Of a stretch of 35,378 nt of DNA, positions 4,361-33,999 are shown one piece after another (the first letter of the stretch is position 1; the number at the start of each line of letters is the position of its first letter). This DNA comes from Gammaproteobacteria bacterium (GTDB lineage: Bacteria; Pseudomonadota; Gammaproteobacteria; JABXHR01), in assembly GCA_013373515.1 (NCBI GenBank), contig JABXHR010000002.1, positions 1-35,378 of the forward strand. The letters are read 5' to 3'. The notes beneath the pieces were generated by a model. The model worked only from the letters and a program-made list of their open reading frames with translations, did not search any database and was not told the origin of the DNA. A program made the translations under genes and the position numbers.

Positions 4361-7300
4361 CTAATCTGCAAATTTTCTAGCGTTATCAAACATCCGTATC
4401 CAAGGCGAGAACTCGTCGTTGTAATGCTTCGGCACATAGCTCAACTGTGCGCGTCTAAACACCCGCTCCGGATGCGGCATCATAATGGTCACTCGGCCAT
4501 CTTCACTGGTAAAACCTGCAATCCCATCGGCTGAGCCATTTGGGTTTTGCGGATATTGGCTAGCGATGCTTTGGTCTGCCAAGGTGTAGCTCAATGCCAC
4601 ACCCGACTCAGAGGAGTGTGCCACTCTACCCTCTCCATGCGACACCACAATCGGCAAGGTGCTACCGGCCATATCCTGCAATAGCACCGACTTGCTCTCA
4701 GCCACGGTTACCTGAGCCAATCTCGCCTCATACTGCTCAGATTGGTTGCGCAAAAACGGCTGAAAATGATCTGCACCGGGGATCAGTGGCTTGAGCTGCG
4801 ACACCATCTGGCAACCATTACAAACGCCGAGCGTGAAAGTGTCGTCACGATGGAAAAATGCTGCAAACTCATCGCTCAAGCGATCGTTAAACAAAATACT
4901 CTTCGCCCAGCCGCCGCCCGCGCCCAACACATCGCCATAACTGAAGCCGCCACACGCGGCCAAGCCCGCAAACTCGCGCAAGTCGACGTGTTGATTGACC
5001 AAATCAGACATATGCACATCGACTGCTGCAAAGCCCGCTGCACGGAACGCCGCCGCCATTTCAATTTGGCCATTGACGCCCTGCTCGCGCAGGATCGCCA
5101 CCTTAGGCTCAACGCCCTTGGCGATATAGGGCGCAGACGGACGATCGGCTACCTCGAAGGTCGGCACCATCACCAAACCACCCTCTGAGGTGCTGTTGTT
5201 GATCCTATTCTCTTCGGTTGCGCAGGCTGGGTTGTCGCGCAAATAGGTAATGGCATGGCTCACCTTGTTCCAGCTTGCCAACCACTCAGACAGGGGCTGC
5301 TCGACTTTGGTGGTGCCCGCAATCACCGACATTTGGTGATCGTAACGACGCTTAGCAATGGGTAATAGCGCTTCTGCCAAACCAAATTGCGTCACCAAAT
5401 CCAGCCAAGCATCGTCGTCTTGGACTTGCACCACCGCGCCAAGTTCTTCACAGAACAGCGCCTCCATCGAGTCAGACTCGATATCCAAACCACAGCGCGA
5501 ACAAAACGCCATTTCGGCCAATGCCGCCAATGCACCGCCATCGCTACGGTCGTGATAGGCGGTAATCAATCCACGGCTCAAGCCTTCTTGAATCAATGCA
5601 AAGAACGACTTGAAGGTTTCGGCATCGTCGAGATCTGGTGCGATCAGACCAAGCTTATTCTGCACTTCCAGCGCAATCGAGCCCGCCATACGGTTTTGCT
5701 GCAAACCAAGATCCAGCAAATAAAGCTGGTCTGATGCCGATTCGTCTAAATACGGTGTTTTGCTTTGACGTACATCTGCACTGCGGGAGAAAGCAGTCAC
5801 TACCAAGGTCATTGGCGAGGTGACCGCCTTGGGCTCGGCATCGTCCCATACCGTCTTCATCGACAAGGAATCCTTGCCCACCGGAATCGCAATATCTAAG
5901 GCTGGGCAAAGCTCCATACCCACCGCCTGCACTGCATCGTAAAGCGCTTTATCCTCACCCGCATGGCCGACTGCAGCCATCCAGTTAGCGGACAATGAAA
6001 CTTGGCTCAGCTCGCCAATATGCGCGGCAGCCAGGTTGGTCAAAGACTCGCCTACTGCCAAACGCGCAGACGCCGCAGGATTGCACAATGCCACTGGCGA
6101 ACGCTCGCCCATGGCCATGGCTTCACCGGCATAGCCGTGGAAATCGTTAAGCGTAATCGCTACATCAGCCACCGGCACTTGCCACGGGCCAACAAACTGA
6201 TCGCGGTGCGTTAAACCGCCCACGGTGCGATCGCCAATGGTGATAAGGAAGTTTTTATTGGCCACCGTTGGATGGCGCAGCACGCGGTGAATCAGCTCGC
6301 TGAGCTCTAGCGTGTTTTGTTCATCAGAGCTCGCCATTTCGCGCGATTGCACCTCGCGGTGCATGCGCGGTGCTTTGCCAAGCAACACTTCCAACGGCAA
6401 ATGCACCGGGTTATCGCCCAGCAATTCATCAAATACCTTTAAGTCGCGCTTGGCCGTGGTGTCGCCAAGCACCGCAAACGGACAGCGCTCGCGTGCACAA
6501 ATATCGGCAAAGGTTTGCAGGCGTTCTTTATCCACCGCCAACACATAGCGCTCTTGCGACTCATTGCACCAAATTTCCATCGGCGACATATCGGGCGCAT
6601 CGTTCGGCACCTTGCGCAAATTAAACTCCGCGCCCATGCCCGCATCGTTGATTAGCTCAGGCAGCGCATTGGACAAGCCGCCTGCGCCCACATCGTGCAT
6701 GGACAAGATCGGCGAGTACTTGCCCATCGCAATACAGCGATCGAGCACCTCTTGGCAGCGTCGCTCCATCTCTGGGTTACCGCGCTGAACCGAGGCAAAA
6801 TCCAGCTCGCTATCCCCTGCACCGCTATCAACTGAGCTGGCTGCCCCGCCGCCCAGTCCGATCAACATCGCAGGCCCGCCCAGCACAATCACCGGATGAC
6901 CCGGTGTAACTTCAAGCTTATCCACATGCATCGGGCGCATGTTGCCAAGGCCACCGGCAATCATCACCGGCTTGTGATAGCCGCGCTGCTCGGTGGTGTC
7001 GCCAAATTGCGTGGCTTGCTCGAAGGTGCGGAAATAGCCGGTTAAATTGGGTCGGCCAAATTCATTGTTAAACGCCGCCGCGCCCAATGGGCCTTCGATC
7101 ATAATATCGAGTGCACTGGCAATGCGCTCGGGTTTGCCATAATTGCCTTCCCACGGCTCTTGCGCATCAGGCAGGTTTAGATTGGAGACATGAAAACCGC
7201 ACAACCCCGCCTTGGGCTTGCCGCCAATACCGGTTGCGCCCTCGTCGCGAATCTCGCCACCACTGCCGGTGGCCGCACCGGGAAATGGCGAAATGGCGGT

Positions 7301-8149
7301 GGGGTGATTGTGGGTTTCCACCTTAATTTGGATATTAGTGGGCTCTTCCACCTCTTTGTAATTGCGTGATTCTGCATCGACCAGCAAACGCTTGGCCGGA
7401 TGGCCAGTGAGCACGGCAGCATTGTCGCTATAGGCCGATAAAATATCGCCGGGATTGAGCTGGTGCGTATTGCGAATCATCGCAAACAGCGATTTTTCTT
7501 GATCCACGCCGTCAATCGTCCACGACGCATTAAACACCTTATGGCGACAATGCTCTGAGTTGGCCTGCGCGAACATCATCAACTCGGCATCAGTCGGATC
7601 ACGTCCTAGCTCAGCATACGCCTTAACCAAGTATTCGATTTCATCTTCCGCCAGCGCCAAGCCCATGCGCTTATTGGCCGCCGACAATGCCGCGACGCCA
7701 TCCTCACCCAGCTCCACATATTGCAATGGCCTAGCTGCGCCAAATACAAACAGCTGCTCAGCAGTTGGAGCGCCATCCATCAGGGTTTCGGTCATGCGAT
7801 CGAACAAGGCCGACGTATTGACGAGCTCTTCCGGCAAGCCATTAAAACAAACGCTCTGCTCTACCCGCTCGACGCCCTCTAAACCGCAGTTTTTAAAAAT
7901 CTCAGTGGCCTTGCTCGACCAAGGGCTCAGTGTGCCCAAACGCGGCAATACATATTGTCCAGCTGGGGCCTCGCCCACCACAGTGGCTGCCAACAACTGC
8001 TGCGATTTATCGATCGCGCTGTCATCCAGTGACTCGGCATCGACAAAGTAAACTGTTTGCGCAGTTAAGGGATTAGAAGTGCCGAGATCGGCGGCGAGTT
8101 TTTCTAGACGAAAAGCGCTCAGTGCAGGCGCACCGACAAATACATACAT
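4361..8149 (-). CDS. purL: Phosphoribosylformylglycinamidine synthase PurL
   Basis: This enzyme catalyses the fourth step of de novo purine synthesis: FGAR plus glutamine and ATP gives FGAM. At 1262 aa it is the long single-chain form of gammaproteobacteria. The N-terminus ([18 protein letters not shown]) matches the family and supports the ATG at 8149, although the Shine-Dalgarno sequence is weak. A PurM-like synthetase core is evident around residues 275-305 ([19 protein letters not shown]) and again in the second half. The C-terminal class I glutaminase domain has the nucleophile Cys1110 in GVCNGCQ, a later HGEGRVAH, and PHPERVFRR near the end. The gene is intact and monocistronic here, upstream of and opposite in strand to ssrA. 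Confidence 0.98.
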
Positions 8150-8334: not shown

Positions 8335-8682
8335 GGGGGTGTTCTGGCTTCGACGTGGGTCGTGCAGCTGGAGGAGCATGTCGAGGTGTAGGGACCTCGT
8401 AAAAACTCTACTTTTAAACTTAGTCGCAAACGACGAAACTTACGCACTAGCCGCTTAATCCGGCTTACCGGGTCCGAATTTGTCCGTAGATGAGGGTACC
8501 CGGGCGCAGCATACGGAATCGTGGGGAGGCGCGTGTCGAGCCAAACCACTAAAACCTTAGACACTAGCCCTGCGAGAGCCTGTTTGTCGGCGCTCAATGG
8601 GTGACTCCATAGACAAACTAAACATGTAGCGCCAAAAGGGAATCACTTGCGGACGCGGGTTCAACTCCCGCCACCTCCACCA
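8335..8682 (+). ncRNA. ssrA: tmRNA (ssrA), one-piece, tag ANDETYALAA
   Basis: Transfer-messenger RNA rescues stalled ribosomes and tags the nascent protein for proteolysis. The 5' end GGGGGTG pairs with CACCTCC near the 3' end to form the acceptor stem (one G-T pair). It is followed by the conserved TTCTGGCTTCGACG segment at the start and the T-arm GCGGGTTCAACTCCCGC before the encoded ACCA. The resume codon is GCA at 8426. The reading frame to TAA at 8456-8458 encodes ANDETYALAA, ending in the expected LAA degron. The length is 348 nt, and the gene is complete and apparently functional. ssrA 3' ends are common integration sites, and the defence island begins right after it. Confidence 0.98.
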
Positions 8683-8860: not shown

Positions 8861-9118
8861 ATGCATATCTCCCTGACCGCCGAGCTAGAGTCTCGAGTGA
8901 AGGCCAAAGTTGAAAGCGGCTTGTACAACAATGCCAGCGAAGTGATCCGCGAAGCGCTGCGCTTTATGGACACACACGAAGATTGGATCTACGAAGTGAA
9001 ATTGGCCCGCCTGCGCGAACAACTGAAAGTGGGCACTGACCAACTAGATCGAGGTGAAGGCATTGCTATCAAATCAAAATCTTCCCTAGCTAGACTTTTC
9101 GACGACATTAAAACTTAA
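8861..9118 (+). CDS. parD: ParD-family antitoxin (type II)
   Basis: An 85-aa protein with the ribbon-helix-helix N-terminus of ParD/CC2985-type antitoxins: the strand MHISLTAELESRVKAK, then a helix with YNNASEVIREALRFMDTHE. The C-terminal half is the charged toxin-binding helix region. The start has a GAGG ribosome site. It is a DNA-binding autorepressor that normally neutralises a ParE gyrase inhibitor encoded directly downstream. Here the downstream parE is destroyed while parD is fully open, so this is an orphan antitoxin that could still repress its own promoter or protect against a related toxin. Confidence 0.88.
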   Translation: MHISLTAELESRVKAKVESGLYNNASEVIREALRFMDTHEDWIYEVKLARLREQLKVGTDQLDRGEGIAIKSKSSLARLFDDIKT

Positions 9119-9123
9119 GCCGT

Positions 9124-9422
9124 ATGCCTGCACATCAACTTGTGATTGCTCAGGCGGCCAAAGCCGACCTTAGAGACATATACCAGTATGGACTGCGATA
9201 ATGGGACAAGCCTAAGCAGACTGCTACCTAGAGAATCTAAAAAAACAGTTTTGGTCCCTCACAGAACAACCATTGATGGGCGCGGAGCGACCAGAGCCCC
9301 TCGTTAGTGGTAGAAGCCTAGCAATACAGAGCCATGTACTGTTTTGCAGATTCAATGGTGAGACAGTTGACATTATTCGTGTATTACATGGCCGCCAAGA
9401 TCCACACCGGCACTTAGGATAA
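9124..9422 (+). pseudogene. parE: parE toxin pseudogene (two nonsense codons and a 1-nt deletion)
   Basis: It starts five bases after parD with an ATG. Frame 1 reads MPAHQLVIAQAAKADLRDIYQYGLR, a ParE/RelE-superfamily N-terminus, then a TAA where CAA (Gln) is expected. One base is missing in the following TGG-G run. In the shifted frame a second TAA, again in place of CAA, follows four codons later. After that the frame is open to the end and reads like ParE: ADCYLENLKKQFWSLTEQPL, then SLAIQSHVLFCRFNGETVDI and IRVLHGRQDPHRHL. With these three lesions no full toxin can be made. The remaining sequence is well conserved, so the loss looks recent. Confidence 0.88.
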
Positions 9423-9572
9423 ATTCGCCAGTACACAGGATTAAACTGGAAAGGCGGCAAATTTGTCCTAGAGCTGTCCAACGGGTGGCATCCACCTCTA
9501 TCCGCGTGTTCGCGTGGCCAATATTTTCAGATATCCGCGAAGCGCTGAAGCATTCCAAAGTTAACAGCAGAT
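9423..9572. other. Gap between parE pseudogene and brxL
   Basis: These 150 bp hold no supported gene. I see no T-run terminator for the brx operon; a short CGCG-TGTT-CGCG hairpin lies near 9506-9518. Confidence 0.4.
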
Positions 9573-11642
9573 TTAATTTTCTATCCGTATATATGTCACT
9601 TCAAAGGCCTTACACGGCCTCTGTTTTTGCATTCGATTAGTCAGCTGGAACGAATCGTTCATATCGTAGGGCTGAAAAATATCTAGCCCTCTATCTAACG
9701 ATATTTTCCACCCGGTGTCGGTCACAATATGGCGTGCGTGAAGCGCGCCAGTGTTGTCGAAGGAATAGACAAACTTAATGCCGACCGTCAGCATCGAGCT
9801 CTGTATCTGCTTGAGCCACTCCCTTTGTTGCTCACCTTTAAATTCATCCTCCACGGTAATTAGGCTAACAACGATCTCGTCCTCCTCAGACTTGTGCCTT
9901 ACTAGCATTTCAAGTAATTCCATAAGATTGCGCACTTGAAAGAACAGGCGAATGTATGGATCTGTAATTGTTATATGCCTAGAACCTGAAACGTATGGCC
10001 CAAATAGCTGGTCATAGCTGATCCCCCTCTGATTCTCCATCACAACAATGTGTTGTTCTTTTAACTCAGGTGTTGTGTCTCGAGAGTTTTCAGGTGATGG
10101 AGTTGGAGCGACTGGTAGTGGTGTATCTATGATTTCATTCAGTTCAGGTCGCTTACCGTCATCAAACTCGGTATTTGTTTGAAAGTATTTTGGAAACTCA
10201 AGCTCTTCCAAAGTGCATACAGTAAATTCTTTTCCAGATTTATCACTGTATCGGAAATTCACAGCGGTATAAGTTGAGTCGATGCGAAGAAGTTGATCTT
10301 TGACGCGCTTACGCCCTTCCATCGCCAAACGAAGCACTTTCTCGATTTCTTCAGAACTTGCCCCACCCTGTGGAAACAGAATCTTCATTAAGCCAGAGAA
10401 GGTTTTGTTAATCGCATCTTTGTCACGTGTCGCAAGCGTTGGATCTAATTCCAAAATCCCTTTGTACTGGTCAGAATAATCCTGATTGCGCAGATGCCTC
10501 AGCACCTCTGCAAGATAGTCGACGACAAAGCCGTAGCCACTCGAAAACATCTCTCCGCGGATTATATCGACTTCCCACCCAGGAATATAATGATGAAGAC
10601 GGTCGAGAAATGCTGAGTCGTAGAACTTATCTGGTAGCGCATCGAAGAGATCAGAATTTTTCAGCATGTAAGGCAAGCTATGCTCTGTATTACCCACAAA
10701 GGCCATAGACGCGTCCGCGCCGAGCGTCTCGACACCTCGCGAAAACGATTTATTAGCCATGTAGTTTTTCATAATATCGACGAGCGCTTTATCCACCTTT
10801 TTTTGCTTTCCTGCAAACTCATCAAAGGCCACCGTATCCCAGTAGCCCACAAGGCCAATTTTTCCACTGGAATTATTGACAAATAACTTTGGAACCGTGA
10901 CCTCACCACCAGAAATCAAAATACCATGCGGTGAAAACTCCGAGTAAATGTGCGATTTACCGGTCCCCTTAGGACCCAATTCAATCAAGTTGTAATTCCG
11001 TTCGCAAAACGGAATTAGTCGGACCAATTGGGTGAGCTTGCTTCGTTCACCAAAATATTCGGGATTAAATCCGATGCTCTGCATCAGAACATCGATCCAC
11101 TCATCCAAAGAGAACTGTTTACGTGCCTCTAAGTAACCTTCAAAGTCAAAATGGGACATCTGAATCGGCTTGAGCGAGCTCAAGATCCATGGCACTGCGT
11201 CTTTGTCTTCGATATGCTCGTATTCAATATCTGCAATCACCCAAACACCGCCAACAAGTAGCTTGGGATGCTGTTTCACCGTACTGGCATCGATCAATAC
11301 TTTCTTGATCCCTAAGTTTGAAAATTCAGTCTCGTAGCAGTCTTTTTTGTCATTGAGGGCGACTGTCACCTTGTCAATGATCTTGTGTCTTCCCTTTTCG
11401 CGAATGGTTGAGCGTACAAGGCCTGCCTCATTACGATGAACATAATGTTTCGCCAGTATCTGTTTAACCGTCTCGATGCCGCTTTGGATACTGTCCTCAT
11501 CGTTGGTTGCGCAGTACTGCCCCAGTAAATATTCCAGCACGTACGTCGGAACGATCGCGTTACCTTTTACGGCTTTTACTAGATCTTTTCTCACGACAAG
11601 GCCGGGGAAAATCTCACAAATTTTTGTATTCAGATCTGTCAT
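9573..11642 (-). CDS. brxL: BREX protein BrxL with MITD1-like C-terminal domain
   Basis: This is the last gene of the BREX operon. Residues ~1-200 match the BrxL N-terminal region. Residues ~200-480 form an AAA+ ATPase: Walker A GPKGTGKS at 223-230, Walker B-like VAFDEF at 271-276, and GNTEHSLPY with a sensor Asn near 319. BrxL proteins assemble into ring-shaped DNA-binding ATPases and are usually described with a C-terminal Lon-protease-like domain. Here a Pro/Ser/Thr-rich linker (~505-530) leads to a different domain at ~542-686. It has YDQLFGPY, ITDPYIR, a GW-x-I-x-x-x-RGLDIF segment and RPC near the end, the hallmarks of the MIT_C phospholipase-D-like fold known from MITD1. The start lies 33 nt beyond the pglZ stop with no strong Shine-Dalgarno sequence. 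Confidence 0.93.
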   Translation of the reverse strand: MTDLNTKICEIFPGLVVRKDLVKAVKGNAIVPTYVLEYLLGQYCATNDEDSIQSGIETVKQILAKHYVHRNEAGLVRSTIREKGRHKIIDKVTVALNDKKDCYETEFSNLGIKKVLIDASTVKQHPKLLVGGVWVIADIEYEHIEDKDAVPWILSSLKPIQMSHFDFEGYLEARKQFSLDEWIDVLMQSIGFNPEYFGERSKLTQLVRLIPFCERNYNLIELGPKGTGKSHIYSEFSPHGILISGGEVTVPKLFVNNSSGKIGLVGYWDTVAFDEFAGKQKKVDKALVDIMKNYMANKSFSRGVETLGADASMAFVGNTEHSLPYMLKNSDLFDALPDKFYDSAFLDRLHHYIPGWEVDIIRGEMFSSGYGFVVDYLAEVLRHLRNQDYSDQYKGILELDPTLATRDKDAINKTFSGLMKILFPQGGASSEEIEKVLRLAMEGRKRVKDQLLRIDSTYTAVNFRYSDKSGKEFTVCTLEELEFPKYFQTNTEFDDGKRPELNEIIDTPLPVAPTPSPENSRDTTPELKEQHIVVMENQRGISYDQLFGPYVSGSRHITITDPYIRLFFQVRNLMELLEMLVRHKSEEDEIVVSLITVEDEFKGEQQREWLKQIQSSMLTVGIKFVYSFDNTGALHARHIVTDTGWKISLDRGLDIFQPYDMNDSFQLTNRMQKQRPCKAFEVTYIRIEN

Positions 11643-11675: not shown

Positions 11676-14225
11676 TTAAAAATCGAAGTCACTGCTAAAC
11701 GATCGGCGAATGGTGTATTTGAGTTGCTTGTATTCGGTGTATTGGTTTGTCCCAGCCACTGGTGATTCCAGCTTTAGACTAACCTCTTGATTATTGGCTG
11801 CATCTGCATCTTGTGTCAGCACAAATCGCAGCTTCATTTCTCGCTCTCTCGCATTGTCAGTCGTCAAGTCCATAATCAGATTATGGGTATCTGAGATCAG
11901 ATCGCCAGCCGCGGTATAAATACCGCAGCGTAACTCTCGCGGTTTTAGTTTTTCTGTCACGGGTTCGGTTTGATAAAGGGTCACAGACAACTGGCTGGTG
12001 GAGATGATGTTCGTGCCACCTCGCAAAATATCCACCTCAACCATCGAAACGTCATCTTGGCGGCGCTTGTTGACTGAAATAACCGGCACTAAAACCTCTT
12101 GCAATGTTGCCCCACCGTGAACAAATCGGCTGCCGGAGCCCTTTAGACGAAGCCTTTGTGTCCCTTTGGGAATCGCCGCATGCACCTCGCCCGCCAAGCC
12201 TAATTGCTCAGGGCTGAACACCTTCATACTGACATCGCTACTGAGCCCTTTACCAAGTAAGAATCGGCGATCGTGATAGTGCACATCACCTTGGGTGTCG
12301 GTGACGAGAAAATCGCTCTCATCTAGCGGGCGGTTCTGGTAAATGAATCCATGATCAGCAGTGATAACGATATTAGAGGCGTTGTAGCTGGTCAGCTTCT
12401 TGATTAAAGTCAGCAGGTCATCAAAGGTACGCTCGGTGGCGTCAAATGCCTCGCCTTCAGACTGCATCTTATCCCCCGCATGGTCGATGCGGTTATGGTA
12501 GATATAGATGACATCATGATTTTTGAAGAGCTCGCGCCCCTCCGTCTGCGTCATATCCAAGATGGATTTGGCTTGTTGCGCGCAGGCGGTTTCACCGAGT
12601 ACAGCCTTGATCAGTTTATCCCGGTTAACTGTACCTTGCGTTGAGACACCGTCGATGGATACCGAACCGTCGGTCTCTGAAATTGAAAACGCACCACCGT
12701 TAGTTGGCAGCAAAGACGCCATACCCAATTGCGTATAACTGGGTAAAGATGACAGCATGTGGTCAAGAGACGCTTGATAGCCCTTCTCTCGATTAATCCG
12801 TCCAATCATCTCCTCGGCCGCTTCATAGCGGAATGCATCCGATATGATGACACACACCTTGGTACCGCGATTACTGAACGGCTTAACGTATCGGCTGTAG
12901 AACTGGCGTTGCGGAGTGACATCCGGCACGGACCACTTATCCATTGCATCGACTTGCCCCTGCCACTGGGTAGCTAGCGGGTTAAGGAATCGATTGACGT
13001 ACAAGTTTTCAATCGTATCTTCCAACGTACTCAGGAGCGTCATTTGCTTAGACGTCTTCAACGCGTGTATGAATTTGCGATAGAGCTGATCTAATTTGAA
13101 CCAGTGACGCACGTATCCAAGCACAGCTTCAGAGCTGCTACACATACTAAGTTGAGCGGTTTCCAGCTTAAATAAGAACTGGCTAGCTACCTCAATAGCC
13201 GCGTAGAGAGTTTCAAAGTCCTTATACCAATGGCTCTGACGGCGCTCGCGGCAAATCTTAGTGACTTCACCTTCCGATAAGGTTTGCTGATTTACCGCTT
13301 GAACCAGGTCATAGACAACTTTGCTATCAATCAGTTTAAAGTAATCTATCTCCATGACATCGCGCAGATCTCTGTTGTTTAGATCGCTCTCAATATCGAG
13401 AAGGCCGGCATATTCCTCAGATAGCGTTTCAAACACGTTCTCGTGCTTGCGGCTATCCTTCCAGCGCTTAAACAGCACCAACGCATCGTTATTGAGTGAT
13501 GCTCTATCACTCGCTTTAGGATTGGTAATCGAAAGTGCGTAGCAGGACTTAAACAGCTCAATCGAAAAGTCTTTAATCGAGGGCGTTTCAGAGACATATC
13601 CATAGTGGCGCGCTATCTGTTCCCACAACACTGAGGCCAGATTACAGCGTTCAATCATTGCAAAGCGTGTCTGACTCTCTTCAACGAGCTCATCAAATAA
13701 GCTTTCGCAAATGACATCTAGGCGAACATCGGCTAATTGATACAATTCCGCGCACACAGCCAGCATCTTTAAACGAATCTGTTGTTTCAGATCGTCAGGC
13801 TTCAGCAGAGTTTTAAGGCGCTCTTTTCGCGCTTCGGCCTGCTTCGGTGCGCGTCCAGCATCAAAAAACGCCTCATGCTCAACAACGACATCAGAAAACT
13901 CCGGCGGCAGTTCAAGCTCACTGAGCCAAATCGCCGATTGATCCGTGCGGAATACAGCGCTATGAAGCTGCACATCTAGCATCCAATTATTGATGTACTC
14001 CGGCTCCGAACCTTCGCAATACAGCAGGAAATTTTGTTTCGGTGCCTCGCGCAGCATGCGGTATTTGAGGGTGAATTCGTTAGATTTAATCTCGGCCTTC
14101 TCAACCCCGTCCATTTCTAGGTTTTCAAAGGCATCACGAAACTCTTTCTTCTCGTCATACCAGAACACAATGCGCTGGCGCTCAAAGAGTCGAGCTAATG
14201 CATGTTGGATACGGTTTTCAGTCAT
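11676..14225 (-). CDS. pglZ: BREX-1 alkaline-phosphatase-superfamily protein PglZ
   Basis: This is a core BREX component, 849 aa, typical for BREX-1 PglZ. The N-terminus (ALARLFERQRIVFWYDEKKE) is characteristic of this group. The PglZ domain follows the middle of the protein: Asp463 in VIISDAFRYE is the metal/nucleophile-region motif, and Asp624-His625 in ITADHGFIY is the second metal-binding motif. Members of this superfamily are metal-dependent hydrolases, and PglZ is needed for BREX methylation and phage exclusion, although its substrate is not established. The C-terminal ~180 residues look beta-rich. It lies 12 nt downstream of pglX. Confidence 0.96.
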   Translation of the reverse strand: MTENRIQHALARLFERQRIVFWYDEKKEFRDAFENLEMDGVEKAEIKSNEFTLKYRMLREAPKQNFLLYCEGSEPEYINNWMLDVQLHSAVFRTDQSAIWLSELELPPEFSDVVVEHEAFFDAGRAPKQAEARKERLKTLLKPDDLKQQIRLKMLAVCAELYQLADVRLDVICESLFDELVEESQTRFAMIERCNLASVLWEQIARHYGYVSETPSIKDFSIELFKSCYALSITNPKASDRASLNNDALVLFKRWKDSRKHENVFETLSEEYAGLLDIESDLNNRDLRDVMEIDYFKLIDSKVVYDLVQAVNQQTLSEGEVTKICRERRQSHWYKDFETLYAAIEVASQFLFKLETAQLSMCSSSEAVLGYVRHWFKLDQLYRKFIHALKTSKQMTLLSTLEDTIENLYVNRFLNPLATQWQGQVDAMDKWSVPDVTPQRQFYSRYVKPFSNRGTKVCVIISDAFRYEAAEEMIGRINREKGYQASLDHMLSSLPSYTQLGMASLLPTNGGAFSISETDGSVSIDGVSTQGTVNRDKLIKAVLGETACAQQAKSILDMTQTEGRELFKNHDVIYIYHNRIDHAGDKMQSEGEAFDATERTFDDLLTLIKKLTSYNASNIVITADHGFIYQNRPLDESDFLVTDTQGDVHYHDRRFLLGKGLSSDVSMKVFSPEQLGLAGEVHAAIPKGTQRLRLKGSGSRFVHGGATLQEVLVPVISVNKRRQDDVSMVEVDILRGGTNIISTSQLSVTLYQTEPVTEKLKPRELRCGIYTAAGDLISDTHNLIMDLTTDNAREREMKLRFVLTQDADAANNQEVSLKLESPVAGTNQYTEYKQLKYTIRRSFSSDFDF

Positions 14226-14237
14226 CGTTATGGCGTC

Positions 14238-17200
14238 CTAGCTCAAACCCACGATCTTCTTCAGCGCTGTGCCGAACAAGGGGTAATTGTGTTTAACACC
14301 GTCATCCAGATCGATGGCGATATTCTGCCCCGCCAGCGGATAGAGCACTTCACGCTCGTAGTCGTTGACCTCATCAATCGCTTTATTGAGCTTATCGATC
14401 ATCTTGAGTGCATCGGTCTTCTCTTTCTGAGTGGCGCTGCCACTAATCGAAATCTGTTCATTGCTATCTCGGCGGGCTTCGAGCTTGGTGCGGAATTCAC
14501 GAAGGTATTCGTTGAGCACTACACTCACCGTTGAAGGTGTATAGCGGTGCATATAGATCAACGCGTTAAAGGTGCCCTTCGGACTTGAGAACATCCAGTA
14601 GATCGGACGCTTCTTATAGCGTTTCACATGATCGTTGTAGAAGTCTTTGACGAAGTATTTCTGGAGGCTCTTACCCAGTGCGTCTTCGATAAAGGCCACG
14701 TTTTCGCCGTAGTGCTCATCACCAAAGGTCACGCGCAAGAATTGCTTAAAGCGCTCCGTAATATCATCCTCAAACCAGTCGCCATCAAAGTCGATCATCG
14801 GGATGACGTTATCATCGTCAGGCATGAATGTCGGTTCAGGGATACGTGCCAAGTAATCGGCTACGGTTTCGCCTTGGTTCGCCAGAATTAGTCCGGGTTC
14901 GTCCAGTGAGTAGCGACCAAACATACAGCCTACAGCATAGGATAAGAATTCCGCCATGGTGTCGGCTTTTAGGCGTGCCTCGCGTTCTTGTTCAGAGATC
15001 TTTATGCCGTAACGATATGCGGGGTTACAGGTCAGCGTGATCTCTTCGATGGGAACATCGGGTGTTAGCTCGTCTTGTAGGCCATAAGCTTCGATGAAGA
15101 TGCGATTGTTCTCTTCCTCCAAGGCCTGCATTTCGTCCGTCATTGCCTGCCAATAGGTCCGAAGGGCAGTGTAGCTGCCCTCAAGTGTCTCAGCGCCGTG
15201 ATCGGGTAATAGCAGAGGTTGAGTGGCGAAATCCCATGAGGTTTCTTCTGAATCCCAATCTGATTTCGACAACGCAATCGAAGCCTGAATATGTGCAGTA
15301 GGAACGCATGTGAAGGCCTCCAAGATCGGAAGTGACGCTACGTGACCTACCTCAAAATTGAGAGTTGGAGAAATCGCTGACAAAAACCGCCGGGCTGTAT
15401 AAGAGTTCATGAAACCAGTGAGTTTTAGGCGGTGCTCGTCATCTGGTGTGAAGATACAGCAACCTGCCACGTCAAATATGAAACCATTCGGGTAATAACG
15501 CAGTGCCAAGTTTCCGCTTGAGATCTTGGACCAGCTTACACTTGGTTTGAAGTATTCCGACATGCTCTTGATTGTACGAGTGGCACTACCGTACAGCGAG
15601 GCAGCGTAACCCACAACCTCGAAGCCATCGTTCTCCCAGTTAACGACGTGCTCAACGTTTCCATACCACTTGCGAAAGCTTCCACCTTTGTTATAAGGAA
15701 ACCATTTTCCGTCAGATGACCTCGCATCCTCACGGCAAGTCGCTTCGAGATAAAGCTTGAACCTCGTAACCTCCCACCAGCTTCTGAGAAATCGGTTGTT
15801 GTCACTGGTTGCCATACCTTGTCTCGTGTCTCCTCTTCTCTTGAGAGGCTCTCCTGAGAAAAATGCGTCCTTAACTTGCTTGGACAACCAATAAGCCACC
15901 GGACTCCCCGGAATCTTCCCAAAATCCTCGGCGGATGCGCGGTAGAACTGACCATTCGGCGCCTTTGAATTTCTTCCGTTAATCGGCGGAAACTCAATAG
16001 GCTTTCCGTTATCGCCGATGTTTTCGTATTCGACGTAACAATAAGCTCCTTTTTTGGATGCACGACCGCCTTTTTGCCAAACGGTGCCACTCGTCCCGAA
16101 TGCGATACCCATAACCATATTGGCCATGTGGATCATAGATTCAATAGCGGCTTGACTCTCGAGCTTCAAACGGAGCTTTTCAAAAGATGAAAGGAACATC
16201 CAGGATTGCATTGTTACCATTGCGCTGAACCCTTTGCTCGGAATCAGTGCCATTCCTCGCTCGATAAACATCGAGAAGAGATCAGTTTTACTATCCGGGT
16301 ACATCTCCTTTGCAAACTTTCCAAGATAGCCATTCATTCCTTTACCGCCCATATAAGGTGGGTTTGCCACCACCACATGGTATTTCGGCGCCAGATACTC
16401 AGCCATGCGCAGCACTTTAATCAAGCGCTCATACAATTCACTCAATAGCAGATCGCCGGAGAAATCCTTGGCTTCAATTAAGCGCGCTGTCTCTGCAGGA
16501 TCTTTGAGCTTCGGTACGATCAAGGAGCCAAAGTTCTTGGACTGCTCGAATTGAGTGAGTGTTTCATGAAGGTCGGCTGTGTAAAGATCTTTACCTACGA
16601 TGGCGATCACGTCATCCATCTCGGATTGAGAGAAGCTCACATCTTCTAATACACAAACATTCGGCTTAGCCTCCATACGGAAGAAGCGACGACGCCCCAG
16701 TTTCTCAGCGGCTTTCATTTCAAGTGCGAAGGAAGCCAGTGCGCCTGCACGCTCATCAATCTCGATACCATAGAGGTTGTTCTTGAGGATCAGCCCCGGG
16801 ATGTCGAACTGATCGTAGCCCTCCTCCTCGTAGATGGCATAAAGCAGATCAAAGGCATAGGTCAGCATGTGCCCTGAACCCGCTGCGGGATCGGCGAGGC
16901 GTATCTCTTCTGGACTGCTGATTTTTAAAAAGTCAGTCTCAGGTTCTTCAGGGGCAATGTAATACTCCATCTGGTCGGTGAGCTTTGAGTTGGGACGATT
17001 CAGCATCCATAAGCGACCGAGTGAGTTCTCAACGAGGTAACGCACAATCCAGTGGGGAGTGAAGAGCTGTGTCGCCGCCGGAATGTTCTCAGCGGAAATC
17101 TTTTGGTTCTTCCTAAGCCCCTCAAACACCTCGTCTTTCTTCTCAGAGATGTAGAACTGATACAACCAGCCAATGACTTCAACATCCTGACAGGTTTCAG

Positions 17201-17762
17201 CGGTCATCACGGCACGCATCTTCGCCAGAATTGAGTTATCTGAAAGAAGGTCATCCGGCATCAACAGCTCAGTGAAATCCTGTATCCGCTCGAACAGATA
17301 CGGCATGCGCTCATATAATGCATTGCATGAGCCAACGATTAATAGACGGTAGGCTTCACTCTGCGCATCTGGGCTTGGTATGGAACCATTTAGGAGACCA
17401 CGGATTTTCTCAACAACGCGAGTATTGATCTGATCGGTGTCGATCTCGCCAGATTTTGCTTCTGCGAGGATCTCAGGCTGTACCTGACCCTCAGCAGGCG
17501 ATACCACACCCACACGGTTATAGCCGTTCACATCCATAAAACGCAGCGCACAGAAGCGGTTGAACCAGGTGTACGCGACTTGATCAATCAAACCCGCCTT
17601 GCCAGTTGCCGATAAGGCTTTCTCAAGCTCGTTTACAACACCGGGATACTCACGACGCGCAGGGCTTTCTGGCTTCAAAACAAAGGCGAGTTTGCTGCTG
17701 ACCTGCTCGAGTAAGTCCTGACGTGCCGCTTGCGCGAATTTCTTTAGCTTTGCAGTATCCAT
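14238..17762 (-). CDS. pglX: BREX-1 adenine-specific DNA methyltransferase PglX
   Basis: This enzyme methylates adenine in the BREX recognition site to mark self DNA, and its presence is also needed for phage defence. It is 1174 aa, normal for BREX-1 PglX. The S-adenosylmethionine motif I is DPAAGSGH (291-298), and catalytic motif IV is NPPY (467-470), so it is an N6-adenine enzyme with both key motifs intact. The variable region after about residue 600 probably contains target recognition, so the methylated sequence cannot be predicted. Its ATG overlaps the brxC stop (TAATG). No homopolymer tract or repeat that would suggest phase variation was seen. Confidence 0.97.
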   Translation of the reverse strand: MDTAKLKKFAQAARQDLLEQVSSKLAFVLKPESPARREYPGVVNELEKALSATGKAGLIDQVAYTWFNRFCALRFMDVNGYNRVGVVSPAEGQVQPEILAEAKSGEIDTDQINTRVVEKIRGLLNGSIPSPDAQSEAYRLLIVGSCNALYERMPYLFERIQDFTELLMPDDLLSDNSILAKMRAVMTAETCQDVEVIGWLYQFYISEKKDEVFEGLRKNQKISAENIPAATQLFTPHWIVRYLVENSLGRLWMLNRPNSKLTDQMEYYIAPEEPETDFLKISSPEEIRLADPAAGSGHMLTYAFDLLYAIYEEEGYDQFDIPGLILKNNLYGIEIDERAGALASFALEMKAAEKLGRRRFFRMEAKPNVCVLEDVSFSQSEMDDVIAIVGKDLYTADLHETLTQFEQSKNFGSLIVPKLKDPAETARLIEAKDFSGDLLLSELYERLIKVLRMAEYLAPKYHVVVANPPYMGGKGMNGYLGKFAKEMYPDSKTDLFSMFIERGMALIPSKGFSAMVTMQSWMFLSSFEKLRLKLESQAAIESMIHMANMVMGIAFGTSGTVWQKGGRASKKGAYCYVEYENIGDNGKPIEFPPINGRNSKAPNGQFYRASAEDFGKIPGSPVAYWLSKQVKDAFFSGEPLKRRGDTRQGMATSDNNRFLRSWWEVTRFKLYLEATCREDARSSDGKWFPYNKGGSFRKWYGNVEHVVNWENDGFEVVGYAASLYGSATRTIKSMSEYFKPSVSWSKISSGNLALRYYPNGFIFDVAGCCIFTPDDEHRLKLTGFMNSYTARRFLSAISPTLNFEVGHVASLPILEAFTCVPTAHIQASIALSKSDWDSEETSWDFATQPLLLPDHGAETLEGSYTALRTYWQAMTDEMQALEEENNRIFIEAYGLQDELTPDVPIEEITLTCNPAYRYGIKISEQEREARLKADTMAEFLSYAVGCMFGRYSLDEPGLILANQGETVADYLARIPEPTFMPDDDNVIPMIDFDGDWFEDDITERFKQFLRVTFGDEHYGENVAFIEDALGKSLQKYFVKDFYNDHVKRYKKRPIYWMFSSPKGTFNALIYMHRYTPSTVSVVLNEYLREFRTKLEARRDSNEQISISGSATQKEKTDALKMIDKLNKAIDEVNDYEREVLYPLAGQNIAIDLDDGVKHNYPLFGTALKKIVGLS

Positions 17763-20700
17763 TAGACGCGCACCTTCTTACCTTGTTTGACCGTGTCTAG
17801 AAGCACTTTTTTGTAGCTGTCCAGATAGGCATCAATATCCGCCTCGGATTCCAGTAACGGTTTGCTATAGTTCGGCTTCAAGTCCCGTGATCCCACGATC
17901 TCTACAACAGGTTTCGGAGGGTGTGGCGGCTCTTCCGGTTTGTCTCCATCACCCTCCCCTGAAACCGGAGTTACAGGTGGAGCTGGTTCAGGCTCCGGTG
18001 TATTCCAGACTTCGATTTGTTGCAGCAGCAGGCTGTATTGGCTGTTCTCAAAGTTATTCGCCGCATCACGGATCATTGCAATCAAACTTTGAGCATTGAC
18101 CTTTTGCTTGGCCGCCTCAAAGGCCGCCTGAACTTCAGATTTACGGGAATCATCAAGTGATAAATACCCGCCGTATTGTGTGAGTTTGTTTTCGAGATTC
18201 TCGATACCGGTGATTGCTGTGGTTCTCTCATGTTCAATCGCTGAATCCAACTTGGATTTAAGCGACTGCATATCGCTCACAAGCGTCTGAATTGCATTGC
18301 CTTTATAAATATTCGGATCTACCACCGCTGCTTTTATCGCATCAAGCTCATCGGCTTGGATATAGCTTAGGTTGGCTTTATGGTCATTAAGAAGGCGTGT
18401 CGCGTCGTCGAGCTGACCTTTGTTCTGGCCTTTCATGAAACTTACAATCGGGTCGATGATGCGATCTTTATAGTCATCTAACCACTTATCTTCGTCCCTT
18501 GAGAGCTCCGTGACAAACCACTGATAAGGCTTACCCTCAAGCTCGGTTAAATCCTCTATCACACTGGTGAGGATCCTTAGAAATGGATAGCGCTCTGCTT
18601 GAATATGCAAACGCTCAAGCTCTTGCTTCTGGTTCGCGAAGGCTTCTTTCGTTTCATTCGCGAGCGCCTTGGCTTCGGTAGCATGCGCCACTTTGTCGAA
18701 GTAATCGTTGAAGAACTGCTTGAGTTTTTTAACCTGCCCAGGCGTGAATTCAACTTGCGGGTCGAGAATCAAATTACCCTGCACGTTTGAATTCGTCAGC
18801 GCACGTGTCAGCTCTGCATCGTCTAAGAGATTTGTGCTTTCGCGAACTTCTATTTTTCCGCGTGCACACAGGTGTGCAAGGGTGCAAAGAACGGCAGCGT
18901 AAGACCAGCCATAGGGCTTTCGTTCAAACTTTTCTAGAATGGATTTTACCGTGGTTCGAATGCCGCCCCGGTGGTTACTTTGGATATGCGCCAGCATCTC
19001 TTGAAGCGATTCGGGTAGCGATGTTTCATCGCCAAACAAACCCTGTGCACCCTGCGCCAGGATGCTTGAAATCTCGGTCTCTTGATACTGTATACCCCTC
19101 AACATTCTGAGATGCGGATAGGCATGCTTAGCTAACTCAATAAAGGCTCGCTGTACTTTGGTTTGACCATCTTCTCCTGCAATCTCTATCTCGATTCCGC
19201 GGACGTAATAAATTGCTTTGCCCATCAGGGACGACACGAGCGATTTAAGTTGGTTGTAGCGCTCGCCGTTTTGCACGGCTTTCTCGGCCAGAATTCGCTT
19301 TATGGAGTCTTGTTGCGTCGCACGAGTTTCATGTGAGATGTATTTCTCGGTTTTTTTGTAGAGTATGAGGTCGCGAACCAAACGATCGTTTTCAGGCAAT
19401 ATGACCCTCAGCTCGTCGTTATAAATGGTGTCCGTCTTGTGTTTGTCAAATGCATCGCGATGATCGTTGAAAGAGGTCACCACGTGAATAGCCAGCTCGT
19501 GTACTCGACCTAACTGCGCATCATCAAGCTTGCGTGTGTAGGCGTAGTCTTGACCGCTTTCGTCCCAGCGTATTTTGCGAGTTCGAATGACGCCTTCAAA
19601 GACGAGTTTTTCAAGTTCAGAACGAACGGCATCCGTATCGATCTCGGTGTTTTTGATTTCAGCCTCGACATCTTGCTCTTCGTCGGTCAGATATTCGTAA
19701 AACTCGCCATTGCGCTGAATCAGCGTCTGGTTTTCCAGAATGGCGAGCGCTTGCTCGACCTCTTGTTTCAGTTCCGTAATGGACGTGCTGAAATTGCTTT
19801 GCATCAACACACAGATATTGCGCACCGTCGGTTTAAATTCTTTGACGTATTTCACCAGGAAAAGCGCTTTTAGCACTCTGAGCGCAAATTCGTTGGTCAG
19901 TGTCTTTTCTGCACGCAAGATTGAGGATTGGATTGCCCCCTTCAAAGCAGTCCGAATACCCTCGAACATTAAGTCGAAAGTTGCGAGGTCACCGAGCTCA
20001 TGGCCTTTGATCGCTATTGCGACTTGTTGAAACACGCCGAGCATGGAACGTTCACCCACAGAGCTATGTTTACCCTCAAAGGCGCTATGACGTGAGAGAT
20101 TTTGTATTGCTGACTGAAACAGCGTGAATTGGTAAGGAATAAATGGATAACTTTGGACAAAGTGATCGCAATCTTTAAAGTTTGGGTATGAGGCGGAGCC
20201 GTCGGCAAAATCGAACAGGGTTTTAAAGTTGTTTTGCTGTTGTTGATAGAGATCTATTAAGCGGCTCAAATGGTCCTTGCGCTTCGCCAGCAAGCGCATC
20301 TGTATCACTTCAGCAACGTCCTGACTGTTGAGCTTCATCCGGTTTTTAAAACGCGCTTGAATTTTTGAGAAGTCATTTGATTGCTGTGTGCTATCGCCGA
20401 GCACAGCTGACATATCCTCTTGCGCCGTGACCACCACCCACGAACGTCCGTTGCACTTGGTGGCCAATGATTCTGCGACAGTTTGTAGGTTGGTCATCAG
20501 TTTGACGTTGTCAGCAATGTACTGGCCGACTTCATCCACGAAAAAGTTGAGGCGAAAATCACTGCCCTTGGTTTGGATATAGTCGTTGACCTGATCGGCG
20601 AAGTCCTCTATCGATAAGCGGTAGTCATCACGGTATTTGTCTAAGATGTTTGTTACCGGTGTGCCGGTTAGCTTGCAGTAAGCTTGATCGATATGCTGTG

Positions 20701-21304
20701 CCATTCGCTTTGCCCTGCGGCGGCCAGACTCCCAATCCTGACATGCCAATTCGGCAAAGACAGTTTTGAACTTTTCAAATTGACCATCCACATCAAGCTC
20801 GCGCTCAAATTGAGCGATATAGGGGTGTTTGCCGTAGTAGCCACAGTGCTCGTCAAACACTTTGACAAATACAGCTACAAGCGCATCGAGCTCATTCTTC
20901 GAGATGACATCAGCCTTCTGGTCGATGTTGAATAGGATGCTCTCCGAGGGAATTGCGACGGCGCGCTTTAAGTCCTCAGCAGCCATGCCACCCTCTTTGA
21001 ATGGATGTTTGTTTAAAAACAGATCCAGCGGGTAATAGGTACCCTCAATTGGACTGTTCTGTAGCAAAAGCGCAAGCATTTTTAAAAGATGCGATTTTCC
21101 AGAACCAAAAAAGCCCGAAACCCAGACACCGTTTGCCCCGGCATAATTGAGGTAAGCGCCCAAGAACTCATCAAGGCGCTTCGCAACCTCGTTGGTGATG
21201 ACATACTCATCGAGCTCTAGATATAGACTGACATCATCATCGGCCTTGATCACGCCTTCAATTGTGCGATCTACAGGCTTCGAAAATAGCTGTTCTAATA
21301 GCAT
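17762..21304 (-). CDS. brxC: BREX P-loop ATPase BrxC
   Basis: A large ATPase of 1180 aa, the usual size for BrxC/PglY-type proteins. Walker A is GFFGSGKS at 64-71, and a Walker B-like NFFVDEVGQYIAD lies near residue 260. The long middle and C-terminal parts are alpha-helical with probable coiled-coil stretches. A Pro/Glu-rich low-complexity linker (~1105-1140) precedes a final short conserved segment. BrxC is essential for BREX and is thought to form AAA-type complexes with other Brx proteins. A good AAGGA ribosome site precedes the ATG, 14 nt after the brxB stop. Confidence 0.96.
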   Translation of the reverse strand: MLLEQLFSKPVDRTIEGVIKADDDVSLYLELDEYVITNEVAKRLDEFLGAYLNYAGANGVWVSGFFGSGKSHLLKMLALLLQNSPIEGTYYPLDLFLNKHPFKEGGMAAEDLKRAVAIPSESILFNIDQKADVISKNELDALVAVFVKVFDEHCGYYGKHPYIAQFERELDVDGQFEKFKTVFAELACQDWESGRRRAKRMAQHIDQAYCKLTGTPVTNILDKYRDDYRLSIEDFADQVNDYIQTKGSDFRLNFFVDEVGQYIADNVKLMTNLQTVAESLATKCNGRSWVVVTAQEDMSAVLGDSTQQSNDFSKIQARFKNRMKLNSQDVAEVIQMRLLAKRKDHLSRLIDLYQQQQNNFKTLFDFADGSASYPNFKDCDHFVQSYPFIPYQFTLFQSAIQNLSRHSAFEGKHSSVGERSMLGVFQQVAIAIKGHELGDLATFDLMFEGIRTALKGAIQSSILRAEKTLTNEFALRVLKALFLVKYVKEFKPTVRNICVLMQSNFSTSITELKQEVEQALAILENQTLIQRNGEFYEYLTDEEQDVEAEIKNTEIDTDAVRSELEKLVFEGVIRTRKIRWDESGQDYAYTRKLDDAQLGRVHELAIHVVTSFNDHRDAFDKHKTDTIYNDELRVILPENDRLVRDLILYKKTEKYISHETRATQQDSIKRILAEKAVQNGERYNQLKSLVSSLMGKAIYYVRGIEIEIAGEDGQTKVQRAFIELAKHAYPHLRMLRGIQYQETEISSILAQGAQGLFGDETSLPESLQEMLAHIQSNHRGGIRTTVKSILEKFERKPYGWSYAAVLCTLAHLCARGKIEVRESTNLLDDAELTRALTNSNVQGNLILDPQVEFTPGQVKKLKQFFNDYFDKVAHATEAKALANETKEAFANQKQELERLHIQAERYPFLRILTSVIEDLTELEGKPYQWFVTELSRDEDKWLDDYKDRIIDPIVSFMKGQNKGQLDDATRLLNDHKANLSYIQADELDAIKAAVVDPNIYKGNAIQTLVSDMQSLKSKLDSAIEHERTTAITGIENLENKLTQYGGYLSLDDSRKSEVQAAFEAAKQKVNAQSLIAMIRDAANNFENSQYSLLLQQIEVWNTPEPEPAPPVTPVSGEGDGDKPEEPPHPPKPVVEIVGSRDLKPNYSKPLLESEADIDAYLDSYKKVLLDTVKQGKKVRV

Positions 21305-21318
21305 AGAAATTCCTTAGT

Positions 21319-21957
21319 TCAGTTCGCGCGATCAAGTATGTTGAACGCGCGGTAATATTTGTCGTCAGTCAGTTTGTCAAACAGGCGCAGTGAGGCGCCG
21401 CTCGCCAGTGAATGTTGATACTTGCCCGGAAAAAACATCAAAGTGGGCTGCTCTTTGGCAACACGCTGGAGGTTGTTGAGAATGTTGTGAGAGCGAATGT
21501 AGGGGAAAACTTCACCAACACCCGTGATAAAGATGACATCGTAGGCAGTGTTTTTCATTTTGGTGACAATTGCCGGAATCAGTACAGTCTCTGTGTCCAG
21601 AACACCTTGCAATTCTTCTTTAAATTGCTCTCTAGAGAGCGTGGTTTCGTTCTCTAGCAGCCACTCCCAATCGCCCTCTTCTCGCAGAATCTCAATGACC
21701 AAATCGTAAAGATTGATCTCGAGGACGACAATTCCCTTTTCACTTAACTCATTGCGGAGCTGTCGTACGGCAAACCCCATTTGACTTGCAATCTCAGGGT
21801 CGAACGGGCAGATGTGAAAAGGCACTTCGTTATTGAGGCCTTCGTTTTTCAGAAAACGTTGGCTAGATACCACGGTGAGCAGGTGCGCCTGGCAATCGAC
21901 CAAGTTGTTGGCTGACACCGTATTGAGTCGTGAGGGAAGATTTGAAGCCTTGCTCAT
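21319..21957 (-). CDS. brxB: BREX protein BrxB (DUF1788)
   Basis: A 212-aa protein of the DUF1788 family, recognised from its length, its place between brxA and brxC, and segments such as HICPFDPEIA, VIFITGVGEVFPYIRSHNIL and LMFFPGKYQ. It is required for BREX function in systems studied genetically, but its biochemical role is unknown. It has no signal peptide or membrane segment. Its ATG overlaps the brxA stop (ATGA), so translation is coupled. Confidence 0.94.
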   Translation of the reverse strand: MSKASNLPSRLNTVSANNLVDCQAHLLTVVSSQRFLKNEGLNNEVPFHICPFDPEIASQMGFAVRQLRNELSEKGIVVLEINLYDLVIEILREEGDWEWLLENETTLSREQFKEELQGVLDTETVLIPAIVTKMKNTAYDVIFITGVGEVFPYIRSHNILNNLQRVAKEQPTLMFFPGKYQHSLASGASLRLFDKLTDDKYYRAFNILDRAN

Positions 21958-22535
21958 AGACGTATTGCTCCGGGTATAAATGCTAAATCTGTCTCAGGTG
22001 AGCAGTTTTGAACGGCGCTCGAAATCATCTGAGGGATAAGCTGATTGGTGCCATTTAACAGGTCACACTGACGCATCATCTGAAAAAGCGCTTGGCGTGC
22101 ATTGGAGCGCGTTTTATCTGAAACAGCCTCTAGCTCAGGATGCCAATCTGCTTTCGAATTGAAAAAATATCCATAATCGTCGTGATCGATTTTTTGCCTA
22201 CCGCTGAGGTGAGCAGGTACCAACACTTCAATCGTGAAATCAGCAATAAAGGGGTATTGCTTACACAGCGCTATCCAGACCAGTTGATTAACATCTGGAT
22301 AATGATCTTCAGCGAGTACTTCAATTTGTAAGTCGTTTAATAGTGACAGACGCTTTAGGATTTCGGCGGCCATGATCTCACTTGAACGAGCCGTTCTTGT
22401 TTGTAGTGGATTGTCGCGTTTGATTTGCGCGTTAACCAAATTCCAATCACGATGACGTTCAAAGGCTTGGGCCACTAAAACGGTTTCTCGAAGCAATGCC
22501 GGACGAGCAAAGCCAATTTTGTATTGATTACCCAT
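21954..22535 (-). CDS. brxA: BREX protein BrxA (DUF1819)
   Basis: This is a DUF1819 protein, helical and about 193 aa long. Recognisable parts are the N-terminus YKIGFARPALLRETVLVAQ and DDYGYFFNSKADWHPEL. Published BrxA structures show a DNA-binding winged-helix-like fold, but its role in defence is not settled. I prefer the ATG at 22535, which gives the usual MGNQYKIGF start. A GTG four codons upstream, at 22547, overlaps the brxR stop (TAGTG) and is a real alternative. Confidence 0.93.
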   Translation of the reverse strand: MGNQYKIGFARPALLRETVLVAQAFERHRDWNLVNAQIKRDNPLQTRTARSSEIMAAEILKRLSLLNDLQIEVLAEDHYPDVNQLVWIALCKQYPFIADFTIEVLVPAHLSGRQKIDHDDYGYFFNSKADWHPELEAVSDKTRSNARQALFQMMRQCDLLNGTNQLIPQMISSAVQNCSPETDLAFIPGAIRL

Positions 22536-22546
22536 TGATGCACCCA

Positions 22547-23401
22547 CTAAAAGAGCAATCCTTGAATCGCCAAAACACTGTCATCCGCGACCATAAGATG
22601 ATATTTGTGTACTTCTTTACGATTGTCGTTGGTGATCGCCGCTTGAAAACGCTGAAGCGTGTAATGAACCAGCGCTTTTCTGACAGTGATCTCTAGGGCC
22701 CCTTGTGTCATTGCATAATCCAATTCAACGAGTTTTTGCTGAATCGGCGTTAGGTTGTTGTTTGCAACCAACTTAATCGTAATTGACTCATTCCAAAGCT
22801 TATCAGCATCACGGTTGATAGGCTCCTCGTCACTTTCTGCTGGGCTGGTAATGCGCGACAGCACGAAGTCGCGATACTGGTTTCTGAGATGACAATATGC
22901 TCTTACATGCCATCTAAAGCCGGTGTAGATCAAAGCGTGAGGACTGATGACTCGCTGATGTGGGTTGGGGTTGTTCATAGAGGCGTAGGTAATCTTTATC
23001 GCCATCGATAGCCGACATGCCTTTAGCAAGCTTCTTAGAACCTCGGGTTTAACCGATCGGTCGGGCAACTGCACGGCACTAAAATGCTCTTTGGCTTCCA
23101 ATGTGACCGCAATCGATTGGTTGGTGACTCCAGATATTAACTCTAGGTAGTCGTTGACATGCCCATTGGTGAGAACCGGCTTGAAACCCTGTTTTGGGAT
23201 GTAGCCTTTTTCACTTGGCTTGTACACCATAGACCCAGGATTTCGGTCGTTGATGTACCTTTTGATGTCAATCGATGCTTGCTGCCTGCTTACGCCAAAC
23301 CAATCTACGATGTGGTTGGTGATGACTCGACCCTCCCACAGTGCCAGCAACTCAATGGCGCGCAGTCTAAGCAACACTTCATGTTTATCAAAACTCATCA
23401 C
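22547..23401 (-). CDS. brxR: WYL-domain transcriptional regulator BrxR
   Basis: A 284-aa regulator with an N-terminal winged helix-turn-helix (residues ~10-60, including NHIVDWFGVSRQQASIDIKRYI). A central WYL domain (~135-205, with ISPHALIYTGFRWHVRAYC and a conserved Arg-rich strand) and a C-terminal extension follow. BrxR-type proteins head many BREX loci and repress their own promoter; the WYL domain probably senses a nucleic-acid ligand. Here brxR leads the minus-strand brx operon and sits back to back with druH. Its predicted promoter overlaps an inverted repeat (listed separately), in keeping with autoregulation. Confidence 0.94.
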   Translation of the reverse strand: MMSFDKHEVLLRLRAIELLALWEGRVITNHIVDWFGVSRQQASIDIKRYINDRNPGSMVYKPSEKGYIPKQGFKPVLTNGHVNDYLELISGVTNQSIAVTLEAKEHFSAVQLPDRSVKPEVLRSLLKACRLSMAIKITYASMNNPNPHQRVISPHALIYTGFRWHVRAYCHLRNQYRDFVLSRITSPAESDEEPINRDADKLWNESITIKLVANNNLTPIQQKLVELDYAMTQGALEITVRKALVHYTLQRFQAAITNDNRKEVHKYHLMVADDSVLAIQGLLF

Positions 23402-33332: not shown

Positions 33333-33728
33333 CTATACCCAGTTTTCTAGCTCTAGCCCCTCTACCCTTTCAAATTCGCGCACGTTGTTGCTCACCAATA
33401 TCCAACCTAAGGCTTTGGCGTGCGCAGCTATCCAGAGATCGTTGTTTCCAATCATGTTTCCCTGTTTAGTGAGCTGTGAACGTATGTCACCATACTGCGT
33501 TGCAGTATCTGCAGACATTGGCAGCGCAGGAACACTGAGAAGCAGTTGCTGAATCACACCGAAAGCCTGCTCACTGTTTTGGCTTTTTGCTGCGCCATAC
33601 TCAAGCTCACCGAGAGATATGACTGACATTGCCACTGAACTTGGCTCCAGCGTCTCAAATTTTTGCAACACTGAGGGTGGGCGCTGCTTGAGTAAATAAA
33701 TAAGAATGTTGGTGTCGAGCAAGTACAT
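33333..33728 (-). CDS. vapC: VapC-family PIN-domain ribonuclease toxin
   Basis: A 131-aa PIN-domain protein with the acidic metal-binding set in place: Asp5 in YLLDTNILIYLL, Glu41 in ISLGELEYGA, Asp97 in GNNDLWIAAHA, and a final LVSNNVREF motif. VapC toxins cleave specific RNAs, often initiator tRNA or rRNA, to halt translation. The active site looks complete, so the toxin is probably functional. It begins two bases after the vapB stop, in the usual antitoxin-toxin order. Confidence 0.94.
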   Translation of the reverse strand: MYLLDTNILIYLLKQRPPSVLQKFETLEPSSVAMSVISLGELEYGAAKSQNSEQAFGVIQQLLLSVPALPMSADTATQYGDIRSQLTKQGNMIGNNDLWIAAHAKALGWILVSNNVREFERVEGLELENWV

Positions 33729-33730
33729 GC

Positions 33731-33958: not shown

Positions 33959-33977
33959 AGGTGGCATCTCATTAATG

Positions 33978-33999
33978 TGTATACGGTTTAATATATACA
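33978..33999. promoter_or_regulatory. Putative vapBC operator
   Basis: The inverted repeat TGTATA-N10-TATACA lies 20 bp upstream of the vapB ATG in an A+T-rich patch that must contain the promoter. This is the expected place for VapBC autorepression. Confidence 0.5.

Follow-up and report, generated by a model that had tools for sequence, protein, structure and literature searches.

The window, a stretch of 35,378 nucleotides of contig JABXHR010000002.1 of a gammaproteobacterium (assembly GCA_013373515.1), carries on its minus strand a full type-1 BREX operon which, according to Pfam, NCBIfam and PADLOC, comprises genes for a WYL regulator, brxA, brxB, brxC, pglX, pglZ type A and, as the last gene, brxL. 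The operon opens with the WYL-domain gene (22547-23401; PF13280, E=2.3e-16), for which a role as BrxR-like regulator is suggested by analogy (PMC9122589), followed by brxA (21954-22547; PF08849, E=1.4e-33), brxB (21319-21957; PF08747, E=7.4e-42), the BREX ATPase gene brxC (17762-21304; NF033441, E=0), the BREX-1 adenine methyltransferase gene pglX (14238-17762; NF033452, E=0) and pglZ (11676-14225; TIGR02687, E=2.6e-249), encoding the BREX-1 phosphatase/nuclease PglZ type A. The brxL gene itself (9573-11642, minus strand) encodes a protein of 689 amino acids that is recognised as BrxL by Pfam and by NCBIfam TIGR02688, with 639 bits against a cut-off of 329.

The operon is adjoined divergently by a type III Druantia system (23583-33132, plus strand), composed of DruH3 (23583-26930, plus strand; PDLC00050, E=8e-235; NCBI name STY4851/ECs_5259 (YjiT) family) and the DruE3 helicase (26887-33132, plus strand; PDLC00037, E=0). 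A PIN-domain protein (PF01850) and a MazE-type antitoxin domain protein (PF04014), together a VapBC-like pair, are encoded at 33333-34069 on the minus strand. A tmRNA gene (8335-8682, plus strand; tag ANDETYALAA) stands between a purL-like gene (4361-8149) and the defence genes. The tmRNA gene is a classic integration spot; a search of the window for att-like repeats of its 3' end was negative. Just downstream of it (8862-9450, plus strand), inspection by eye revealed a small ParD-like antitoxin frame followed by an apparent broken ParE-like remnant.

Domain architecture of BrxL and the fold of its tail

In a Pfam scan of the 689-residue protein, BrxL_N covers residues 10-141 (E=9.8e-49) and BrxL_ATPase residues 152-463 (E=2.5e-129), the Walker A motif GPKGTGKSH being present as well, and phmmer comparison with PDB sequences matches residues 4-471 to Acinetobacter BrxL (8EMC/8EMH) with E=5e-140. 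The two proteins are alike in their N-terminal and AAA+ domains but differ in the C-terminus, which is Lon-like in the Acinetobacter protein and in the window BrxL is a MIT_C domain (PF16565; residues 540-686, window 9585-10025, minus strand), matched over profile positions 1-142 of 142 with E=1.8e-43 and 148.3 bits against a cut-off of 25. A PF16565 search of the organism's own genome gave E=2.2e-44 for the same domain. The original prediction, which held that a MITD1-like domain takes the place of the Lon-like end of this BrxL, is borne out by these matches: the Lon-C profile matches none of the MIT_C proteins, profile comparison of the BrxLs yielded no protein with both Lon-C and MIT_C, and TIGR02653, a Lon-related model of 675 positions, matches the window BrxL only up to residue 475 and under its cut-off. 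The motifs from which the domain had been recognised (YDQLFGPY, ITDPYIR, GWKISLDRGLDIF and RPCKAFEV) all occur in this order, and the region assigned to them, window 9576-10022, corresponds correctly to BrxL residues 541-689. They are preceded by the Pro/Thr/Ser-rich linker that had been described as joining the tail to the ATPase (residues ~489-524, window 10071-10178, minus strand), which is predicted to be disordered (pLDDT < 50 in the full-length AF2 model). This full-length model, built with 16 homologues, was used for the linker and MIT_C parts only, because its ATPase core is poor (mean pLDDT 65).

Residues 527-667 match human MITD1 (2YMB/4A5Z) with E=5e-14 in the phmmer search of PDB sequences, and the tail domain queried alone does so with E=7e-15. 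An AF2 model of residues 525-689, built with 22 homologues, reached a pLDDT of 92.3 and a pTM of 0.87, and its top five Foldseek matches in the PDB are without exception chains of MITD1, with TM 0.82-0.84 on the query and E between 2.5e-17 and 2.6e-15, the next relatives, at a distance, being PLD1, PLD6/Zucchini, PLD2, phosphatidylserine synthase and PLD3 (a 5' exonuclease). The BrxL tail is a MITD1-type PLD fold, and a chance match is excluded; profile search and predicted structure, set beforehand as the test, agree with each other on this point. That the C-terminus would instead be a diverged Lon-like domain, as database names reading 'Lon protease-like' suggest, is refuted by the missing Lon-C matches and the Foldseek result, these names stemming from the ATPase half only. 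The C-terminal domain of human MITD1 (4A5Z, 2YMB) has the whole fold (TM 0.83-0.84/0.88) and the DPYIR, HxR, GW and RGLD motifs in common with the BrxL tail at 30% identity, and carries Asn where the tail has D642. Unlike BrxL, human MITD1 has an N-terminal MIT domain and no AAA+ part; Pfam found no MIT domain anywhere in the 689 residues of BrxL, which sets it apart from a MITD1/ESCRT accessory protein.

Distribution of MIT_C and phylogeny of BrxL

In an even sample of 398 Pseudomonadota genomes, BrxL was above cut-off in 17 genomes, seven with a MIT_C and ten with a Lon-like end, and all above-threshold PF16565 matches are BrxL. Four sub-threshold PF16565 matches (L008-L011, E about 3e-4 to 6e-4) were rejected as noise, being ABC-transporter ATPases. 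Across 84,980 species genomes, 322 MIT_C loci were confirmed, the best 80 of which come from Pseudomonadota, Thermodesulfobacteriota, Bacteroidota, Bacillota, Chloroflexota, Lentisphaerota, Cloacimonadota, Cyanobacteriota, Spirochaetota and others. Among these best 80, 79 are BrxL or BREX-linked, as is almost every plasmid match (25 plasmid records, mostly annotated brxL); eight IMG/VR contigs with MIT_C encode whole BREX-type BrxLs, and phage records gave no MIT_C match. In 75 of the 76 MIT_C loci from elsewhere that have upstream sequence, pglZ lies upstream on the same strand. This linkage, together with the complete operon in the window, indicates that the domain belongs to BREX rather than being a peculiarity of this genome.

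The exception among the best 80 is Stutzerimonas stutzeri KOS6 (L084, 5998-6495), where an isolated MIT_C frame of 165 aa has neither BrxL nor PglZ nearby and is perhaps a BREX remnant. A Paenarthrobacter plasmid (L102, 5440-6489) encodes, away from BREX genes, a 349-aa protein whose N-terminus is IF2_N-like and which ends in MIT_C (HGRTITANSGW). On a Candidatus Thiodictyon plasmid (L101, 5631-8474) a dynamin-family GTPase (Dynamin_N, E=2.8e-20) is fused to a C-terminal MIT_C (E=2.7e-21) with HDRYVVCDHG in a protein of 947 aa, possibly a membrane-linked use of MIT_C.

Trees of residues 1-465, which span just the N-terminal and ATPase domains, place the main MIT_C BrxLs on a single, coherent branch apart from all Lon-type BrxLs (support 99/100 and 100/100 in two trees). 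L124 (a Thioflavicoccus plasmid) and L135 (genome G420) lie outside it, on a long branch whose exact place is unsure. Since the tail labels on the ATPase tree require more than one gain or loss, BrxL most likely gained a C-terminal MIT_C twice or exchanged it. This second lineage, which also includes a split gene on a Hymenobacter sp. BRD67 plasmid (L100, 6391-8432; brxL annotated in several short pieces, MIT_C last), has BrxL_N, BrxL_ATPase and MIT_C as does the window BrxL, but differs in its HDRE motif, in its ATPase outside the main MIT_C clade and in its greater closeness to MITD1. The gammaproteobacterial genome G420 carries both kinds on different contigs, L135 with HDRE and L140 with HAR.

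The proposal, made from the window protein, that bacterial immunity is evolutionarily linked to an ESCRT accessory domain is right, and the link is stronger in the second lineage: against human MITD1, L135 gives E=6e-38 and the window BrxL 5e-14, identity to MITD1 is 44% for L124 and 30% for the window domain, and a stretch of 25 residues in the L135 domain is almost the MITD1 sequence, L124 being nearly the same. In a small domain tree MITD1 groups with the HDRE set (90/83), away from the HAR set; this tree holds one eukaryotic sequence, from which the direction of transfer is not readable. We consider it possible, though doubtful, that eukaryotic MITD1 owes its membrane-binding PLD-fold domain to a bacterial anti-phage domain of the BrxL type, nearest to the HDRE lineage of L124 and L135.

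Putative active site and proposed function of the tail

An alignment of 103 MIT_C BrxLs locates in the tail an HxRx4D motif, H635-A-R637-H-I-V-T-D642 (window 9717-9740, minus strand), in which the Lys of the PLD HKD motif is replaced by Arg. D561, Y563, R565, Q569, N572, H635, G644, W645, R651, G652 and R675 are invariant in this alignment; R637 is present in 102 of the 103, the remaining one having Cys at the catalytic-Lys position, and D642 in 95, the other eight being without it. The window protein lacks the HxKx4D form with its catalytic Lys, HARHIVTD keeping the His and the Asp, and the GSxxN element of the PLD motif is absent as well, LDRGLD standing six residues past D642. The first BrxLs of this kind were reportedly described by Li et al. 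in 2025. The fusion, of which the novelty had been left for checking, is known: a 2026 NAR survey (PMC12839542) reports in its main text that 1030 of 2913 type-1 BrxLs carry a C-terminal 'HKD-endoDNase' (HRD variant) in place of LonP, PADLOC model PDLC02508 covers the architecture full-length (residues 1-687 of the window BrxL), and PF16565 already appears among BREX-associated families in a 2025 paper (PMC12715929). As far as that survey's main text describes it, the BrxL-HKD (HRD) endoDNase of type-1 BREX has the same domain order, HxRx4D tail and operon partners as the window system, with no difference in kind. From the shared architecture and HRD motif, the nuclease-like tail of the survey is identified as the MITD1 domain, and because the survey's main text mentions neither MIT_C, MITD1, MIT nor ESCRT, we count this identification, together with the second, MITD1-closer BrxL lineage, as possibly new.

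The tail would be a module that acts on or binds phosphodiesters, most likely those of DNA. PLD-fold enzymes work as paired half-sites, and PLD-fold domains of defence systems mostly act on nucleic acid. In the solved BrxL, DNA is surrounded by the AAA+ ring, and two such rings are held tail-to-tail by paired C-terminal domains within a wide chamber (PMC10164562). The window BrxL would likewise assemble as a DNA-encircling AAA+ ring, as Acinetobacter BrxL does, and its flexible linker would put MIT_C at the DNA. We infer that MIT_C domains pair in the place of the Lon-like domain, because BrxL C-terminal domains pair rings and PLD enzymes use half-sites; this pairing would occur via the PLD fold, possibly at the ring-ring contact that the Lon-like domain makes in the Acinetobacter protein, and each pair would unite two H635/R637 centres into a composite phosphodiester-binding site. 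Such a site could nick or hold phage DNA after PglX and BrxC have marked it as unmethylated. To this reading, a type-1 BREX BrxL of a known PLD-fold variant whose MIT_C pairs provide phosphodiester sites that nick or hold phage DNA, we assign a probability of about 0.5.

Whether the site cuts is another matter, as the survey's main text names the motif HRD and expects activity (PMC12839542), whereas PLD1 K898R and PLD2 K758R, which bear the same Lys-to-Arg change, are employed as catalytically inactive mutants (PMC3648575); no MIT_C BrxL was found to have been assayed for nuclease activity. Because this change kills the mammalian enzymes, the HRD site of BrxL should not be assumed active. The tail might, as a weaker but serious contender, be a catalytically dead structural module that dimerises the rings and clamps DNA, the backbone being bound by the conserved Arg cluster while PglZ cuts. 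The Lon-like domain that MIT_C replaces is itself a catalytically dead dimeriser (PMC10164562; main text of PMC12839542), the Arg in the HKD motif is the very change used for PLD1/2 inactivation, and PglZ is kept adjoining the MIT_C BrxL. Conservation of H-x-R in nearly all aligned proteins across many phyla exceeds what a scaffold needs, although a phosphate-binding pocket could account for it. Our preference for a nuclease over such a clamp is guarded, because the PLD1 and PLD2 mutants are inactive and GSxxN is missing.

The original prediction also envisaged coupling to a membrane or to ESCRT, in which case MIT_C would target the ring to acidic lipids or to the inner membrane, either to meet injected DNA there or to attack the membrane. 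Hadders et al. in 2012 are said to have characterised the MITD1 PLD fold as membrane-binding. MITD1 is moreover listed as a PI(4,5)P2-associated ESCRT-III partner (PMC9776629), and the dynamin-family fusion shows MIT_C joined to such a GTPase in a bacterium. We nevertheless regard this as unlikely for the window BrxL, because its ATPase half corresponds to a soluble ring that encircles DNA, the domain exchanged for MIT_C points into the chamber, a MIT domain is absent and the linkage to BREX is tight; the usual action of defence PLD folds on nucleic acid points the same way.

By the identification made above, the 'HKD/HRD endoDNase' tail of about one third of BrxLs belongs to one domain family with the part of an ESCRT accessory protein that binds membranes. 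Two questions thereby become open to test: does the PLD site of BrxL, with Arg for Lys, act as a live nuclease or as a dead DNA clamp, and did MITD1 arise from bacterial defence? If the latter were true, an ESCRT accessory domain would have been borrowed from a BREX-type DNA-defence protein, with its substrate switched from DNA to lipid.
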